This document shows positions 25,588-32,441 of a stretch of 64,000 nt of DNA, piece after piece. Numbering within the stretch: position 1 is the stretch's first letter; each line of letters opens with the position of its first letter. The stretch is from NCBI RefSeq assembly GCF_014640975.1, contig NZ_BMHO01000002.1, positions 282,696 through 346,695 of the forward strand. Direction: 5' to 3'. Position numbers and translations under genes: made by a program. A model generated the notes under the pieces. That model saw only the letters and a list, made by a program, of their open reading frames with translations. It did no database searches and was not told where the DNA came from. Origin of the DNA: Microbacterium faecale. GTDB lineage: Bacteria > Actinomycetota > Actinomycetes > Actinomycetales > Microbacteriaceae.

Positions 25588-26457
25588 ATGTCCCTTGCCA
25601 TCGATGTTCGGAATCTGCGGAAGCGATTCGGGACGCACACCGTGCTCGACGGCGTCGATCTCGACGTCCGGCGCGGCGAGATCTTCGCCCTTCTCGGCCC
25701 GAACGGGGCGGGAAAGACCACCATCGTGAACATCCTGACCACGCTCGTCCGCCCGGACGACGGCCACGCCCATGTGGCCGGTATCGACGTCGCCGCGGAT
25801 CCCGTGTCGGTCACGCAGCGAATCGCGTTCACGGGGCAGGCCGCCGCGGTCGATGAGCGGCTGACCGCGCGCGAGAATCTCGTGATGTTCGCGCGCCTGT
25901 CCGGACTCCCCGGTCGCGCCGCCGGCGCGCGCGCCGAGGATCTCCTCGACCGCTTCGCCCTCTCCGAGGCGAGCGGACGGCGCGTGGGCACCTTCTCCGG
26001 CGGGATGCGTCGCCGCCTCGATCTCGCACTGAGCCTTGTCGCGCAGCCGGAGGTTCTCTTCCTCGACGAGCCGACGACGGGACTGGACACCCGCAGTCGA
26101 CGAGAGCTGTGGCAGATCATCGCCTCACTTGCTGGCTCGGGCACGACCGTCTTCCTCACGACGCAGTACCTCGAGGAGGCCGACCAGCTCGCCGATCGCA
26201 TCGCCGTGCTGAACGACGGCCGCGTGGCGGCGCTCGGTACGGCCGACGAACTCAAGGCACGCATCGGGGGCGGATCCGTCGTGCTGCGGGAGCACGACGG
26301 CACCCTGCGGCGGGAGGTTCCGACCGACGGCACCATCGCGTCGATCCGTCGCGCGCTCGACGACCTCGAGCAAGACAACGTGGACGGCGAGATCGCCATC
26401 GAGCACCCGACGCTCGATGACGTCTTCCTCGCCCTGACGGAGAAGGAGACCGTATGA
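25588..26457 (+). CDS. DrrA-type ABC exporter ATPase
   Basis: 289 residues from ATG at 25588 (AGAAAGGAT upstream). Walker A is GPNGAGKTTIVN, the signature is FSGGMRRRLDLALSLV, and Walker B is LFLDEPTTGLD. The C-terminal segment contains the DDVFLALT motif typical of daunorubicin-resistance-type ATPases. It overlaps the permease gene by ATGA. The pair probably exports a hydrophobic drug, under control of the divergent TetR. Confidence 0.92.
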   Translation: MSLAIDVRNLRKRFGTHTVLDGVDLDVRRGEIFALLGPNGAGKTTIVNILTTLVRPDDGHAHVAGIDVAADPVSVTQRIAFTGQAAAVDERLTARENLVMFARLSGLPGRAAGARAEDLLDRFALSEASGRRVGTFSGGMRRRLDLALSLVAQPEVLFLDEPTTGLDTRSRRELWQIIASLAGSGTTVFLTTQYLEEADQLADRIAVLNDGRVAALGTADELKARIGGGSVVLREHDGTLRREVPTDGTIASIRRALDDLEQDNVDGEIAIEHPTLDDVFLALTEKETV

Positions 26458-27239
26458 CGACCATCGCCCCTCGCCCCCGGCTCCGCGGGCTCACCGCAGA
26501 AGCCGTATTCATCGGCCGGAGCCTCAGGCACGCGTTGCGCGACGCGGAGTCGATGCTGATGTCGATCGCGTTGCCCGTGCTCATGATGCTCATGTTCACG
26601 TACGTGTTCGGCGGAGCGATCGACCCCAGCGGCGGCTACGTGGACTACGTCGTGCCGGGAACGATCCTCACGTGCGCGGGATTCGGAGCCGCGACGACCG
26701 CGACCTTCGTCGCGAACGACATGACGGGCGGCATCATCGACCGCATCCGCACCATGCCGCTCCGGCCGGGCGCTGTTCTCACAGGCCACGTCGTGGCATC
26801 GCTGGCCCGCAACCTCGTCGCGACGGGCGTGGTGTTCCTCGTCGCGGTCGCGATCGGATTCCGCCCGACGGCGACCCCCCTCGAGTGGCTCGGCACCTTC
26901 GCCATCATCGCGCTGTGGATCTTCGCGATCACCTACCTGTTCGCGGCGATCGGGCTCGCATCGGGATCCGCGGAGGCCGCGAGCGGTTACGGCTTCATCC
27001 TGCTGTTCCTGCCGTACGTCTCGAGCGGCTTCGTGCCGACCGACACTATGCCGAACTGGCTGCGCGTCTTCGCCGAAGTGCAACCGGTCACGCCCGTCAT
27101 CGAGACGATGCGCGCGCTGCTGATGGGAACCGATCCGGGTGCGGCACCGCTCGCCGCGGTCGCCTGGTGCGTCGGCATCGTCATCGTGGCAGCCATCTGG
27201 GGCGCCTGGCTTTTCCGCCACAAGGCGGGAAGGCGCTAG
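26454..27239 (+). CDS. DrrB-type ABC-2 exporter permease
   Basis: 261 residues with six membrane helices. The family pattern includes SIALPVLMMLMFTYVFGGAI near residue 40, DYVVPGTILTCAGFG, IDRIRTMPLRPGAV and a late YVSSGFVPTDTMPNWLR. This is the membrane half of the DrrAB exporter. The stop is followed by a large GC-rich palindrome that probably ends the transcript. Confidence 0.9.
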   Translation: MTTIAPRPRLRGLTAEAVFIGRSLRHALRDAESMLMSIALPVLMMLMFTYVFGGAIDPSGGYVDYVVPGTILTCAGFGAATTATFVANDMTGGIIDRIRTMPLRPGAVLTGHVVASLARNLVATGVVFLVAVAIGFRPTATPLEWLGTFAIIALWIFAITYLFAAIGLASGSAEAASGYGFILLFLPYVSSGFVPTDTMPNWLRVFAEVQPVTPVIETMRALLMGTDPGAAPLAAVAWCVGIVIVAAIWGAWLFRHKAGRR

Positions 27240-27278
27240 CGACTGCCAAGCGATCGCAACTGCAACTGCAAAGCGCAG

Positions 27279-27367
27279 CGGGTGACCTGGCGGCGCCGCT
27301 GGCATCGGGCCTGGCGGGAGGATCCGCCCCGCGGATCCGGGGGACTGCGGCGCCGCCAGGTCACCCG
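27279..27367. terminator. Nested palindrome after drrB
   Basis: Outer arms of 21 bases (27279-27299 and 27347-27367) are perfectly complementary. An inner hairpin GGATCCGC-CCC-GCGGATCC sits at 27320-27338. It lies 40 bases past drrB and just outside the left end of the IS481-type element. No U-tract follows, so it may be a repeat or an mRNA-stabilising structure as well as a terminator. Confidence 0.65.
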
Positions 27368-27389
27368 CGCAGCGGCAGCGGCGGCGAAA

Positions 27390-27395
27390 TCTAGG
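27390..27395. repeat. Left target-site duplication TCTAGG
   Basis: TCTAGG directly abuts the element's left TGT end and is repeated exactly at 29812-29817. IS481-group elements are known to insert at NCTAGN sites. Confidence 0.8.
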
Positions 27396-27810
27396 TGTTG
27401 CGGGATGGGAGGTTGTTGACGCGTCTGCTCGCGGCGATGGCAGGTTGATTCGCGATGGCCCATTTGGCGAGGCCCGACAACGGCTCCAGTAGGGACTTGC
27501 CGAGGGGTGTGAGGCTGTACTCAACGCTTGGTGGGATGGTCGCGAAGACCTCCCGGTGGACCAGTCCGTCTTCTTCCAGACCACGCAACGTGCGGGTGAG
27601 CATGCGTTGACTGATCGTTTCGATGCCGCGGTGAAGTTCGTTGAACCGATGTGCTCGTTGGCCGAGCAGGACCACGACAAGCACGGTCCATTTGTCGCCG
27701 ACTCGGCGCAGGACGTCAGTCACCGGACACTGCTCGTGCTCGTCGCCGGGCACCGGGCTCGGCAATGCGGTGTCAAGTGGAGCGGGCACATGCATGTTCG
27801 CTGCTGACAT
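27391..27810 (-). CDS. HxlR-family winged-helix regulator (element-borne)
   Basis: 139 residues from ATG at 27810 (AAGAAGG eight bases upstream). The HxlR domain is full: CPVTDVLRRVGDKWTVLVV, then FNELHRGIETISQRMLTRTL and LEEDGLVHREVFATIPPSVEY. The single Cys before PVTDVL is at the place of the redox-sensing Cys of HypR/QorR-type members. It is divergent from the SDR gene, with an operator candidate between. Its last codons run out of the element, and its TAG stop lies in the duplicated target TCTAGG. Confidence 0.88.
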   Translation of the reverse strand: MSAANMHVPAPLDTALPSPVPGDEHEQCPVTDVLRRVGDKWTVLVVVLLGQRAHRFNELHRGIETISQRMLTRTLRGLEEDGLVHREVFATIPPSVEYSLTPLGKSLLEPLSGLAKWAIANQPAIAASRRVNNLPSRNT

Positions 27811-27856
27811 CAAACTGCCTTCTTTCGCGTTCGGTGTCGGTTACCGATGATGGAGG

Positions 27857-27873
27857 TACTTACCAAGAGTAAC
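27857..27873. promoter_or_regulatory. Candidate HxlR operator
   Basis: TACTTACCAAGAGTAAC is an imperfect dyad (TACT/AGTA arms, TTAC/GTAA pairs) of the kind bound by HxlR-type regulators such as QorR. It lies 12-29 bases before the SDR start in the divergent gap of the element. Binding is inferred. Confidence 0.5.
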
Positions 27874-27885
27874 TAGGGAGAATCG

Positions 27886-28806
27886 ATGGTCAATCAACAT
27901 CATGGCGGTACGGGCCCGGATGCGGAAGGGCGGGCGGGCCAGACGGTCGTAGTTACCGGCGGCAGTGACGGCATGGGACGGGGCATCGCGCTCGGCCGGG
28001 CGGCACGGGGCGACCGAGTCCTCGCAGTCGGGAGCAACCCGATGAAAGGCGAGCGGCTGCTCGCTGACGCCGCGGCGTCGGGGTTGGGTGATCGGGTTGA
28101 GTTCCTGACTGCGGATCTAAGCACGATCGCGGGCAACCAGACGGTGATCGACCACGTCGCGGCCAACTACAGGGCCATCGATGGCTTGGTGATGGCGGCG
28201 AACCGTCAGTCACCGCAGCGCGTCCAGACGAGCGACGGGCTCGAGTCGACCTTTGCGCTCTACTACCTGAGTCGCCACGTGCTGGGCCACGGCCTGATGC
28301 CCGCGTTGTCGGCCGGCTCGAAGCCCGTGATCGTCAACATCGCCGGAGTCGGACTCGCCTCCGGAAAGATCAACTGGGATGACCTCCAATTGCGGCACCG
28401 CTACCGCACCATCGCCGCGCAACTCCAGGCAGGACGTGCCAACGATCTCCTGGGAGTGGCGATGGCGGCGCAGTTCGGCGAGCAGGTTCCCTACGTCCTC
28501 TACCACCCCGGGTTCACCCGCAGCGGCGACTCGGCGATGGAGCAGATCAACCCGCTGACCCGGGCAATCATCAAGACCGTCGCTATGGTTGCTGCCCGGT
28601 CCGTTGAACGGGCCATCGCGCCGGTGCACGGTTTTCTCGACTCGCCACCCACGGTCCCGTTGACGGCGGTCGACCGCGGCAAGCTGCTGCCGTCTGAACT
28701 GAAGACGCTCGACCCCGCCGCAGCGCGACGTCTCGCCGACGCGACCGACCAGATCCTGGCCGAAGCCGATCCGACGGCGGTCAAGCGCGAGGACGGCACC
28801 CGGTGA
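27886..28806 (+). CDS. SDR-fold protein lacking the catalytic Tyr-Lys pair (element-borne)
   Basis: 306 residues from ATG at 27886 (AGGGAGA upstream). The Rossmann start is VVTGGSDGMGRGIALGRA, fitting NAD(P) binding. INWDDLQ aligns with the FNWDDLQ-type segment of WWOX/retinol-dehydrogenase-like members, which normally runs on to YxxSKxAN. Here that stretch reads QLQAGRAND, so Tyr is Gln and Lys is Gly. Ordinary dehydrogenase activity is doubtful. Its TGA overlaps the GTG start of the transposase, so the two are translationally coupled. Confidence 0.85.
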   Translation: MVNQHHGGTGPDAEGRAGQTVVVTGGSDGMGRGIALGRAARGDRVLAVGSNPMKGERLLADAAASGLGDRVEFLTADLSTIAGNQTVIDHVAANYRAIDGLVMAANRQSPQRVQTSDGLESTFALYYLSRHVLGHGLMPALSAGSKPVIVNIAGVGLASGKINWDDLQLRHRYRTIAAQLQAGRANDLLGVAMAAQFGEQVPYVLYHPGFTRSGDSAMEQINPLTRAIIKTVAMVAARSVERAIAPVHGFLDSPPTVPLTAVDRGKLLPSELKTLDPAAARRLADATDQILAEADPTAVKREDGTR

Positions 28807-29816
28807 GCCAGACTGGGCACGCGAACGCCCCGTTGAGTCGTGAAGGCAGACGGCGGCTGGTGGAGCGCTGCACCACTCGTCCCATCGCGCACGTTGCGGC
28901 CGAGATGGGCATCTCCCGTGCCTGCGCGTCGAAGTGGGTCAACCGGTGGCGTCGTCATGGCGACGCCGGATTGCTCGATCGTTCCTCGAGCCCCCACCGC
29001 AGTCCGAGCGCGACACCAGCCTGGGTTATCAACAAGATCGAGTCCTCACGACGCGAGCACAAGTGGTCCGCCCAGCGCATCACCGACGAGCTCGCAGACC
29101 TCGGATTCACGATCAACCGACGAACCGTCACTCGGCACCTGACCAGACTCGGTCTCGGCAGACGCAAGTTCATCGACCCCGGCGGAGACAACAACCGCAA
29201 GCCCGGGAAGATCACCGCCCGCTGGCCCGGTCACATGGTGCACCTGGACGTGAAGAAGGTCGGCAGGATCCCCGACGGCGGAGGGTGGCGTGTCCATGGG
29301 CGTGACAGTGACCAGGCCAAGACCGTCGATCGAGCGAAGTCGGCTGGTGCACGGCGTGGGTACACCTACTTGCACTCCGCCATTGACGGGTTCTCCCGGC
29401 TCTCCTACACCGAGCCACTACCCGATGAGAAGGGAGCCACCGCGGCAGCGTTCCTAGGCCGAGCCAAGGTCTGGTTCGCCGCCCATGGCATCACCCACAT
29501 CCACCGTGTCGTGACCGACAACGGCGCGTGCTATCGCTCGGGGGACTTCGCCCGGATCGTTGGCAATCAATCCCGGCACCAGAAGACCAAGCCCTACACC
29601 CCTCGCCACAACGGGAAGGTGGAGCGTTATCAGCGGATCCTGGCCGAAGAACTGCTCTACGCCCGACACTTCACCAGCGAGGAAGCTCGCTCAGCTGCGA
29701 TCGCGGTCTGGAACATCCACTACAACTACCACCGACCACACTCCGGCGCGGAAGGTCAGCCACCGGCATCCCGACTGTCGGAAGGCGTCACCAACGTCCA
29801 GCCCTCATACATCTAG
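28803..29816 (+). CDS. IS481-family transposase
   Basis: 337 residues. The N-terminal helix-turn-helix is IAHVAAEMGISRACASKWVN, with a second HTH in the following 90 residues. The DDE core has Asp in MVHLDVKKVGR, Asp in VVTDNGACYRS and Glu in HNGKVERYQRILAEE. All three catalytic residues are present and the length is normal, so it looks intact. It starts at GTG 28803 inside the SDR stop, and its TAG lies in the right-hand TCTAGG. It moves the 27396-29811 element. Confidence 0.93.
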   Translation: MSQTGHANAPLSREGRRRLVERCTTRPIAHVAAEMGISRACASKWVNRWRRHGDAGLLDRSSSPHRSPSATPAWVINKIESSRREHKWSAQRITDELADLGFTINRRTVTRHLTRLGLGRRKFIDPGGDNNRKPGKITARWPGHMVHLDVKKVGRIPDGGGWRVHGRDSDQAKTVDRAKSAGARRGYTYLHSAIDGFSRLSYTEPLPDEKGATAAAFLGRAKVWFAAHGITHIHRVVTDNGACYRSGDFARIVGNQSRHQKTKPYTPRHNGKVERYQRILAEELLYARHFTSEEARSAAIAVWNIHYNYHRPHSGAEGQPPASRLSEGVTNVQPSYI

Positions 29817-29817
29817 G
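29812..29817. repeat. Right target-site duplication TCTAGG
   Basis: An exact copy of 27390-27395, immediately after the element's right end. It also contains the stop codon of the transposase (plus strand) and of arsR (minus strand). Confidence 0.8.
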
Positions 29818-30217
29818 CCCCGAGCCGCTTAAGGGCCGTCTGCACGACGGCGGCCGTGCGACCGAGCGACTCGGCGAAGCGTGTGGCCGGCTCTGGCAAC
29901 GGCGCGTAGATCGACTGAGCGGCCTGCGTCGCGAGCTCTCCCTCGTCGACGAAGAACGGCATGAGCCAGTCGTCGACCTCCTCGAGAGGAACGGGGTCGA
30001 TGCTGTAGAACCGGTGCTGGCCCTCTTCTCGCACCGTGACGAGCCCCGCCTCGCGCAGCACCTTGAGGTGCTTCGACACCGTGGGCTGACTGACGGTGAG
30101 CTCAGCGACGAGCTGCGAGACGCTCGTACCGCCGTCCGAATCCTGATCGCGACGCTGCAGAACGCGCAGGATCTCGCGCCGGGTCCCGTCGGCTATCACG
30201 TCGAAGATGTCGGCCAT
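29813..30217 (-). CDS. ArsR-family regulator
   Basis: 134 residues with an N-terminal winged helix: MADIFDVIADGTRREILRVL, then LVAELTVSQPTVSKHLKVLR and GLVTVREEGQHRFYSI. No metal-binding cysteines are visible, so it is of the non-metal or unassigned type. The ATG at 30217 is taken because upstream sequence lacks the fold. Its TAG stop lies in the target duplication of the IS481-type element, which inserted exactly at the gene's end without altering it. It is divergent from trkH, 99 bases away. Confidence 0.9.
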   Translation of the reverse strand: MADIFDVIADGTRREILRVLQRRDQDSDGGTSVSQLVAELTVSQPTVSKHLKVLREAGLVTVREEGQHRFYSIDPVPLEEVDDWLMPFFVDEGELATQAAQSIYAPLPEPATRFAESLGRTAAVVQTALKRLGA

Positions 30218-30316
30218 AACGCTCAGCGTATGCCATGGCAGCGATATGCGGCACGGCGGGCGCGTCGGAGATACGATGTTCGCTGTTCGTCTCGGACGAG
30301 GAGAGGCGGTCGGCCG

Positions 30317-31777
30317 ATGTCCGGCAGGCAGCATGCCCGCGGTGATGCCTGGCCGCAGCGCGTCGCGCGGCGGCTCGGGCAGTGGTTTCGCGCGTTCACG
30401 ACGCACTCGCCGTCGCGCTTCGCGATCGTCGTCTTCGCCAGCCTCGTCCTCGTGACGACGGCGCTGCTCTCCCTGCCCATCGCATCGGCCGACCGCACGG
30501 TCACGCCGCTCGCTGACGCCGTCTTCACCGCGGTCTCGGCCGTGTGCGTGACGGGCCTGACGAGCGTCGACATGACGAGCCACTGGTCGCACTTCGGCGA
30601 GGCGGTCATCTACGGCGCGGTCAACGTCGGGGGGATGGGTGCGCTCACGCTCGCCTCCATGCTCGGATTGATCATCTCGAAGCGCATGGGGCTACGCGCG
30701 AAGCTCATCGCCGCTGGCGACACGAATCCGCTGCGCGCGCACGGCGGCGCGGTGAACGAATCGCAGACGGTCCGCCTCGGCGAGGTCGGATTGCTGCTGC
30801 GCACGGTGGCGCTGTCGACCGTGATCATCGAGGTCGTCGTCGGGCTCCTGATCTATCCGTCGATGCTACAGAAGTTCGGCTGGGCCGCGGCCCTGTGGGA
30901 AGCACCGATGTACGCCGCGATGGCGTTCACCAATACGGGCTTCACCCTCAACGAGGGGGGCATCGGCATCTTCGCCGACGACTACTTCTTCATGACGGTC
31001 ATCATGATCACCGCGTTCATCGGCAGCGTCGGTTTCCCCGTGCTGTTCGCCCTGTCCCGCCACCTTGTGACGCCCGGCAGGGCGGCACTCCTGAGGCCGT
31101 CGACCTGGTCGCTCCACGTGAAGCTCACGCTGATCACCTCCGGGCTGCTGCTCGTCGGCGGCGCGGTCTCGTTCCTCGCGCTCGAGTACGACAATCCGCA
31201 CACGTTCGGCCAGCTCGACGTCACCGACACGATTTTCCAATCGTTCTTCCTGTCGACGATGACGCGCTCGGGCGGCATGACGTTCATCGATCCGGGCGAG
31301 CTGTACGGATCCGGGATGGTCGTCGGCTCGATGCTGATGTTCGTCGGGGGCGGATCCGCGTCGACTGCAGGCGGGATCAAGGTCACGACGCTCGCGGTCC
31401 TCGCGCTCGCGGTGTGGTCAGAGGCGCGCGGACGCCAGTCGGTGCAGGCGTTCGGACGGCGCATCCCCTCGGACGTGCAGCGCGTCGCGGTCGCCGTCCT
31501 CGCCTGGGGCGCGACGATCTGCGCGGTCGCGACGATCGTCATCGCGCAGATCACGCACGCGCCGATCGCCGAGGTGCTGTTCGACGTCATCTCGGCGTTC
31601 GGAACGGTCGGCCTGTCGACCGGGCTGACCGAGGCGCTTCCGGATCACGCGCTCTACGTGATGGGGATCACCATCTTCATGGGGCGCGTTGGTACAGTCA
31701 CTCTGGCCGCGGCGGTTGCCGCGACCTCCCGAACGCAGCATTACGCACTGCCTGTCGAAAGGCCGATCGTTGGTTGA
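30317..31777 (+). CDS. TrkH/KtrB-type potassium uptake channel subunit
   Basis: 486 residues from ATG at 30317 (GAGGAGAGG upstream). Four pore repeats are visible with selectivity-filter segments such as AVSAVCVTGLTSVD, AMAFTNTGFTLNE, MTRSGGMTF and ISAFGTVGLSTGL. It carries K+ across the membrane with a TrkA/KtrA ring. The regulatory subunit is encoded directly downstream with overlap. The downstream gene pair and length (KtrB-like) support potassium rather than another cation. Confidence 0.92.
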   Translation: MSGRQHARGDAWPQRVARRLGQWFRAFTTHSPSRFAIVVFASLVLVTTALLSLPIASADRTVTPLADAVFTAVSAVCVTGLTSVDMTSHWSHFGEAVIYGAVNVGGMGALTLASMLGLIISKRMGLRAKLIAAGDTNPLRAHGGAVNESQTVRLGEVGLLLRTVALSTVIIEVVVGLLIYPSMLQKFGWAAALWEAPMYAAMAFTNTGFTLNEGGIGIFADDYFFMTVIMITAFIGSVGFPVLFALSRHLVTPGRAALLRPSTWSLHVKLTLITSGLLLVGGAVSFLALEYDNPHTFGQLDVTDTIFQSFFLSTMTRSGGMTFIDPGELYGSGMVVGSMLMFVGGGSASTAGGIKVTTLAVLALAVWSEARGRQSVQAFGRRIPSDVQRVAVAVLAWGATICAVATIVIAQITHAPIAEVLFDVISAFGTVGLSTGLTEALPDHALYVMGITIFMGRVGTVTLAAAVAATSRTQHYALPVERPIVG

Positions 31778-32441
31778 ACGGATCCACGGCGACTCCCCGG
31801 TCCTGGTCATCGGTCTCGGACGATACGGTGCGGCGTGCGCGGGAGAGCTCGATCGTCTCGACCGCGACGTGCTCGCCGTCGACGCCGACCTCGCACTCGT
31901 CCAGAAATGGTCCGAACGCGTCACCCACGCGGTGCAGGCTGATGCGCGCAATCTGGAGGCGCTGCAACAGATCGGCGCGCAGGACTTCGACGTCGCAGTC
32001 GTCGCGACGGGATCGTCGATCGAAGCGTCCGTACTCATCACCGCGAACCTCGTCGACCTCAAGGTGCCGCAGATCTGGGCCAAGGCGACAAGCCAGTCCC
32101 ACGGCAAGATCCTCTCCCGCGTCGGCGCGAATCACGTGATCTACCCCGAGCGCGAAGCCGGGGAGCGCGTGGCGCACCTCGTCAGCGGCCAGATGCTCGA
32201 CTTCATCCGCTTCGACGACGACTTCGTGCTCGCGAAGATGTTCCCCCCGAAGTTCATCCGCGGCGTGAGCCTCGCCGACTCGGGTGTGCGGACGAAGTAC
32301 AACGTGACCGTCGTCGGCGTGAAGTCACCCGCGCGCGCGTTTCACTACGCCGAGCCGACGACCGTCGTGACCAATCACGATCTCATCATCGTCTCCGGCA
32401 CGAACGCCGACGTCGAGCGGTTCGCCGCGCTCGACCGCTGA
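31770..32441 (+). CDS. TrkA/KtrA-type potassium uptake regulatory subunit
   Basis: 223 residues. The N-terminal RCK domain has the nucleotide-binding GLGRYGAACAGELDRLDRDV and the downstream Asp in VLAVDADLALV. A C-terminal RCK_C domain follows (about 140-223, SLADSGVRTKYNVTVVGVK). The start is taken as TTG at 31770, overlapping the trkH stop, with GAAAGG upstream; an in-frame start earlier would lie deep in trkH. It gates the TrkH channel in response to nucleotides. Confidence 0.9.
   Translation: MVERIHGDSPVLVIGLGRYGAACAGELDRLDRDVLAVDADLALVQKWSERVTHAVQADARNLEALQQIGAQDFDVAVVATGSSIEASVLITANLVDLKVPQIWAKATSQSHGKILSRVGANHVIYPEREAGERVAHLVSGQMLDFIRFDDDFVLAKMFPPKFIRGVSLADSGVRTKYNVTVVGVKSPARAFHYAEPTTVVTNHDLIIVSGTNADVERFAALDR

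Follow-up and report, generated by a model that had tools for sequence, protein, structure and literature searches.

Positions 27396–29811 of a 64-kb stretch of the Microbacterium faecale genome (hereafter the window) form a genuine transposon of the IS481 family that targets NCTAGN sites. The host genome comprises 3.12 Mb in four contigs, of which C2 contains the window. With considerable confidence, the element is read as a TnRErm46-like IS481 cargo transposon that carries two divergent genes, an hxlR regulator and a gene for a protein of the short-chain dehydrogenase/reductase (SDR) fold, and in which the SDR message most likely also serves for translating the transposase.

Both borders of the element carry the 6-mer TCTAGG, which occurs exactly twice in the window, at 27390 and 29812. 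The ends have the form TGT...ACA, and 18 of the first 28 bases of each end are identical; among 200,000 pairs drawn at random from the window, 53 equalled or exceeded this. When both strands were scanned with end profiles built from 65 other elements, the window element being omitted, 27396 (plus strand) and 29811 (minus strand) each ranked first, scoring 34.4 on the left and 47.5 on the right; the best sites outside the element reached 9.7 and 5.0. TG...CA terminal repeats are a trait of the IS481 family, and a 6-bp NCTAGN duplication at both ends is one of its NCTAGN-targeting group. The transposase matched the NCBIfam profile transpos_IS481 (NF033577) with 286 bits, above the cut-off of 224, over positions 1–284 of 284, and its residues D149, D239 and E274 are each kept in 85 of 87 aligned rows. 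The hxlR and transposase genes both read outward, taking their last codons from the terminal repeats and their TAG stops from the duplicated CTAG. The tail VNNLPSRNT that the left repeat gives to HxlR is absent from the 16 homologues compared. The original prediction, made from the letters of the window, had named the direct repeats, the imperfect TGT-ended inverted repeats, an intact DDE transposase and two non-transposition genes between the left end and the transposase, all of which were borne out.

Related elements were compared at 91 transposase loci: the best 80 of 215, six more, four plasmid records and the window (L036 and L040 were omitted as copies of L077 and L102). Both ends were placed at 66 loci, window included, 40 by a rule requiring the same 6-mer at both ends and 26 by end profile alone. 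Cargo is carried by 39 of these elements, which span 1.9–7.3 kb, and the other 27 are cargo-free and measure 1.1–1.2 kb. Identical duplications flank 28 of the 39 and 15 of the 27, largely by construction, because the 40 rule-based placements demanded the same 6-mer at both ends; among the 26 profile-placed elements, three have identical 6-mers and 13 have CTAG at both ends. Overall, CTAG stands at both ends in 53 of 66 elements (40 of them placed by that rule), and a TAG falls in the transposase frame at the right duplication in 60 of 66. In a control at the 60 loci with a right-end CTAG, a matching 6-mer with TGT and a repeat match of at least 16 of 28 was present upstream in 39; the other fifteen NCTAGN 6-mers gave a partner end in 10 of 900 tries, and some of these ten may be true ends that drifted. 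Transposase copies with boundaries of their own near 28803 would have placed the two genes outside the element. The cargo-free relatives instead have their left repeat ~100–120 bp ahead of the transposase, and the profile gave no left end near 28803 in the window. Because relatives hold other cargo in the same place, the boundaries are supported, and with them the assignment of the cargo genes to the window element.

The cargo itself is diverse. Pfam scans of 50 cargo proteins, from a rough gene call in which frames were picked by length and GC content at third codon positions or by eye, identified regulators of the HxlR, MerR, TetR, ArsR-like, MarR, WYL and MLTR types. Effectors include MFS transporters, SDR and NAD(P)-binding proteins, a zinc alcohol dehydrogenase, an F420-type oxidoreductase, hydrolases, a glyoxalase, an rRNA methylase and a class I Tyr/Trp-tRNA-synthetase-like protein. 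HxlR occurs in five placed elements (window, L072, L081, L085 and L089), each time with an effector of nucleotide-binding fold. The original prediction had presented the window element as a cargo-bearing version of a normally cargo-free family; the cargo stands but its rarity does not, since 39 of 66 placed elements carry cargo and such elements are published.

Three relatives stand apart in their contents. At L078:6905-7945 the sole called cargo gene is the tRNA-synthetase-like protein, possibly, as a guess, a drug-insensitive copy. The L077 element is 7339 bp long between matching NCTAGN 6-mers, and its first two left frames are as in L076 (2219 bp); it is possibly a larger or composite cargo element. 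Two of the 50 scanned proteins are IS21-type, the istA/istB-like genes lying within the stretch of a further IS481 relative, L188:212-4995, probably as a nested insertion. Another three of the 50 had no Pfam match.

The hxlR/SDR pair was probably captured whole, along with its promoter. A class-wide SDR search of 394 genomes was followed by the fetching of 30 loci, the window's own and 29 others. Fifteen of the 29 (L156–L170) have a divergent hxlR, 53–77% identical, and no transposase in the ~1.5 kb examined on each side; the remaining 14 had no hxlR match. A further hxlR–SDR pair, at L008/L037 (HxlR 73%, SDR 57%), showed no transposase match in 13 kb. These stand-alone pairs in other genomes of the class make capture of the pair as a unit probable. 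In the 16 pairs compared, homology to HxlR ceases at residues 123–134 of 140, and homology to the SDR protein ceases at 291–297 of 306 in 13 pairs and at 283, 302 and 304 in the others. From these limits, the promoter was probably captured too, and the terminal repeat would have written the new HxlR tail.

At the other side of the cargo, the TGA stop of the SDR gene and the GTG start of the transposase gene share 4 bp. Counted by hand over the 39 cargo-bearing elements, the overlap between the last cargo gene and the transposase gene is 4 bp in 18, window included, and 1 bp in three; in three more, a gap of 3–5 nt separates the two genes. The 21 overlapping cases comprise 12 cargo labels and one unlabelled element (L090).

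Cargo-free elements have a predicted hairpin leader in place of the cargo. The stretch from left repeat to transposase start was aligned for the 27 cargo-free elements (L098:7895-7988, L088:7909-8000, L118:4286-4380 and 24 others), yielding 12 predicted pairs, nine of them with changes on both sides. Pairing holds in 94.2% of alignment cells versus 33–61% in slid controls, a comparison that favours the leader structure because the structure was derived from those same sequences. The covariation score was 0.465 against a shuffle mean of 0.255 (0/500), and the nine pairs changed on both sides compare with 5.3 in shuffles (1/500); the number of further pair types was not exceptional (17 versus 15.8; 107/500 shuffles). 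Single folds of seven leaders gave z values of −1.8 to −5.5, three of the seven being better than all 200 shuffles, and the fold at the SDR/transposase junction of the window was not unusual (z 0.86). A covariance model of the leader matched 35 of the 91 sources, namely the 27 training elements and eight others (L061, L071, L082, L094, L101, L107, L108 and L122), and matched none of the 39 cargo-bearing elements at E 0.1.

In the examples read, the right arm of the leader contains a GAAAG-like ribosome site and ends close to the start codon, and the loop contains a conserved GGCAGGATG, which could be a −10 box. In IS10 and IS50, a fold of this sort silences read-through transcripts only. Because the ribosome site lies in the right arm and the putative −10 box in the loop, the leader fold would, by analogy, probably act likewise, hiding the ribosome site in read-through transcripts alone. 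No paper on IS481 with impinging transcription or stem-loops was found in the open-access literature, in searches that were not aimed at the cargo–transposase overlap. An Rfam family was also sought for the leader: six sources searched at gathering level gave only a tRNA, with nothing in the window, and L098 and L112 searched up to E 0.5 gave only that tRNA.

It might be supposed that a plain 1.1-kb IS481 inserted beside a resident hxlR–SDR pair, the seeming left repeat being fortuitous or a second, solo end. Cargo-free elements with related transposases do exist (27 of 66), as do hxlR–SDR pairs with no transposase within 1.5 kb. Such an origin is nonetheless very improbable here, since the leave-one-out left-end profile ranks 27396 far above every other site in the 64 kb, the same 6-mer stands in both flanks and nowhere else in the window, the repeat encodes the HxlR tail, no left end lies near 28803, and a leader of the cargo-free type is absent. 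The locus in relatives argues in the same direction. Of 59 genomes of the genus, counting the host's, 58 match the right flank (29818–32441), and in G164, one of the two closest genus relatives (~80% identical), the permease and arsR genes adjoin with no insert and with neither hxlR nor SDR between them; furthermore, among the 394 genomes of the class sample, the SDR search at 1e-30 matched none of the genus except the window's. The locus was thus not seen with the two genes and without the transposase. The predicted empty site was found in part: G164 lacks the insert but is not an exact empty site, because its arsR ends in TGA, without this CTAG. The arsR of G451, the other close relative (~80% identical), ends in the same way and has different sequence next to it. 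The element could also be a dead relic that retained its cargo and lost transposition, to which its single genomic copy and the degraded right-end fragment on contig C1 would conform. This is improbable given the intact transposase frame and DDE residues, the identical duplications and the open cargo frames.

A more serious alternative concerns expression. The 4-bp overlap makes translation of the transposase from the SDR message most likely, yet the transposase may instead be driven by a promoter of its own inside the SDR gene, the overlap being packing without regulatory meaning. Overlap alone does not prove coupling; 15 of the 39 cargo-bearing elements have a gap above 5 nt, an unclear start or no co-directional cargo gene reaching the transposase, and the cargo of L065 faces away. 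An internal promoter is nevertheless considered rather unlikely, because overlaps of 4 or 1 bp recur across 12 cargo labels and one unlabelled element and because the leader model matches none of the cargo-bearing elements. Several points weigh against the reading of the window element as a mobile cargo transposon with a coupled transposase: the 15 exceptions just named, the commonness of 4-bp overlaps in bacterial operons generally, the relatedness by descent of many of the 18 4-bp cases, a raw count of cases that are thus not all independent, the failure to find a second intact copy in the element's own genome, and the failure to find an exact empty site in the two nearest relatives. To these may be added a rejected candidate, the YodB-like operator motif TACT-N7-AGTA; it is present in the intergenic stretch of the window and in none of 16 others scanned, and no operator is claimed.

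The search for further copies extended beyond the host. The near-identical copies with different flanks anticipated by the original prediction did not materialise: a second full-length DNA match to the element, and so a second hxlR–SDR–transposase unit, was absent from 398 genomes of the bacterial family (the own genome and 397 others), and nothing in plasmid records matched over 80% of the element. No further copy came from searching for the SDR in the 394 class genomes, in two genera (40 and 12 genomes) and in viral contigs, a neighbouring transposase being checked for the 30 fetched loci only; plasmid-record SDR matches were all below 60% identity. A second such element is likely, on the sole ground that SDR protein P0004 (85% identical) and transposase P0143 (87%, 337 amino acids) are each listed with a longest contig of 15,869 bases.

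A transposase tree bears on how cargo carriage arose. The tree kept 87 of 90 transposase rows, 14 of them without a cargo label, labels having been assigned via Pfam and by eye. The status of carrying or lacking cargo changes three times on it (shuffle mean 24.6, 0/500), and cargo-bearing rows fall into two large groups and the single L078, apart from both, the position of L065, at the base of one group, being unresolved. Among 36 labelled cargo rows there are 24 cargo labels and at least 23 changes; the window's group of 20 rows has 11 labels and 10 changes. With 23 changes in cargo type against three in status, cargo was swapped often and the cargo-carrying state rarely changed, within the limits set by the 14 unlabelled rows, the ceiling of 80 loci and the assigned labels. 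Such counts cannot distinguish gain from loss. The leader is taken as older because the same leader occurs in separate groups whereas the cargo differs. Most likely, a leader acting against read-through gave way to cargo, and expression of the transposase would now come from the cargo operon. A broader generalisation can be advanced tentatively: in NCTAGN-targeting IS481 elements, the leader hairpin may have been replaced more than once by regulator–effector operons ending in the transposase, after which these lineages, without the leader and its promoter, would depend on cargo for transposase expression, swap but not lose it, and jump upon the cargo's signal.

For the window element, a sequence of steps can be proposed from its anatomy and family. 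The transposase would act on the TGT-ended repeats, insert into CTAG and duplicate 6 bp. The chromosomal-type hxlR/SDR pair and its shared promoter region sit between left repeat and transposase, and the SDR message would start at the divergent promoter, probably under HxlR control. SDR and transposase would then rise together in response to a thiol, redox or electrophile signal. By itself, the element is an ordinary member of its kind; setting it beside its relatives suggests a rule whereby different regulated detoxification, efflux or resistance modules are carried in one slot, from left repeat to transposase, with the transposase often joined to the cargo by a stop/start overlap. If the coupling is real, the compound that favours carriers of the cargo also sets off its spread, and the cargo would be retained since the element cannot otherwise express its transposase. 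The comparison of relatives suggests that passenger genes have taken over the switch controlling transposition.

Cargo-bearing IS481 elements, NCTAGN targeting and CTAG-derived stops are already published, so the window element joins a known kind. TnRErm46/ISRe46 of Rhodococcus equi is a 6.9-kb IS481 transposon reported at many sites, with a right-end transposase, NCTAGN duplications and cargo that includes a regulator and erm(46) (PMC6794481). As in the window, its transposase stop comes from the duplicated CTAG and some target genes are given a stop codon; its repeat TGTTGCGGGTCATGACGTTG is counted as alike to the window repeat TGTTGCGGGATGGGAGGTTG. It differs in cargo and size, and its transposase region is ~70% identical in DNA (record KY494640). 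ISArsp12 is likewise an IS481 element with two passengers, a regulator and an effector (2,615 bp, CCTAGA duplication), but these are ArsR and a permease and its terminal sequence is different; ISPfr21 is an 86% relative of it (PMC6305408). ISLxc2/ISLxx4 of Leifsonia xyli shares the NCTAGN duplication and the transposase stop in the host site, and ISLxc2 differs in being a 1,105-bp element with one transposase gene and without cargo (PMC2516522). The cmx and erm(36) elements on Micrococcus/Brachybacterium plasmids (L185–L187) have an IS481 transposase and a 4-bp cargo–transposase overlap like the window element. In L186 and in L187, one and the same NCTAGN 6-mer borders the element on either side; the left flank of L185 is not CTAG. 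All three differ in their drug-resistance cargo, and no regulator gene is annotated or called in them.

The cargo proteins of the window were also compared with known structures of their families. The SDR protein contains TGxxxGxG, the NAD(P)-binding motif of SDR proteins. In an alignment with 3rd5, Q179 and G183 take the places of Tyr and Lys in the classical catalytic YxxxK, so the label 'dehydrogenase' is unsure; the fold is that of an SDR, and classical activity is unsupported. Q179 is invariant across the window protein and the best 120 of 732 homologues (121 of 121 rows), and G183 occurs in 114 of these rows. The window gene (27886–28806) and P0001–P0120 make up an SDR-fold family with an invariant Gln for the catalytic Tyr and mostly Gly for the Lys. 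Redox regulators of the HxlR type combine a winged helix with an N-terminal Cys; in the window's HxlR, which has the PF01638 fold, the candidate residue is the Cys within ...EQCP..., which lines up with 1yyv and YybR (4a5m).

Table 1. Features of the window element and of its flanks.
Feature	Position	Strand	Remarks
IS481-family cargo transposon	27396-29811		2416 bp; NCTAGN-targeting
Left target-site duplication	27390..27395		TCTAGG (NCTAGN); hxlR ends in the TAG within its CTAG
Left terminal inverted repeat (TGTTGCGGG...)	27396..27425	+	18/28 against right end; leave-one-out profile rank 1
hxlR regulator gene	27391..27813	-	140 amino acids; PF01638, 94 bits; stop from duplication
Divergent intergenic/promoter region	27814..27885		partly resembles that of chromosomal hxlR–SDR pairs (by eye)
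SDR-fold protein gene	27886..28806	+	306 amino acids; PF00106, 56 bits; NAD(P)-binding motif kept
IS481-family DDE transposase gene	28803..29816	+	337 amino acids; GTG start; TAG stop inside right duplication
Right terminal inverted repeat (TGTATGAGGG... on minus strand)	29782..29811	-	encodes transposase tail VTNVQPSY
Right target-site duplication	29812..29817		TCTAGG; contains arsR stop codon and transposase TAG stop
Permease gene	26454-27239	+	261 amino acids; ABC-permease; left neighbour of insert; called drrB in the original prediction
Terminator-like palindrome	arms 27278-27318 and 27328-27368		downstream of ABC-permease gene; left flank, outside element
Host arsR-type gene	29813..30220	-	right flank, outside element

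In the flanks, the insertion left the arsR-type neighbour with a stop codon. Excision had been expected to rejoin a drrB palindrome; nothing would be rejoined, because both palindrome arms lie wholly to the left of the element and the arsR stop lies in the right-hand duplication. Elsewhere in the same genome, contig C1 holds a remnant of the right end of a related IS481 element (G000:C1:2654509-2654749, L044); the remnant is degraded, 79% identical over ~210 bp, has no left end by profile and has an edge without CTAG.

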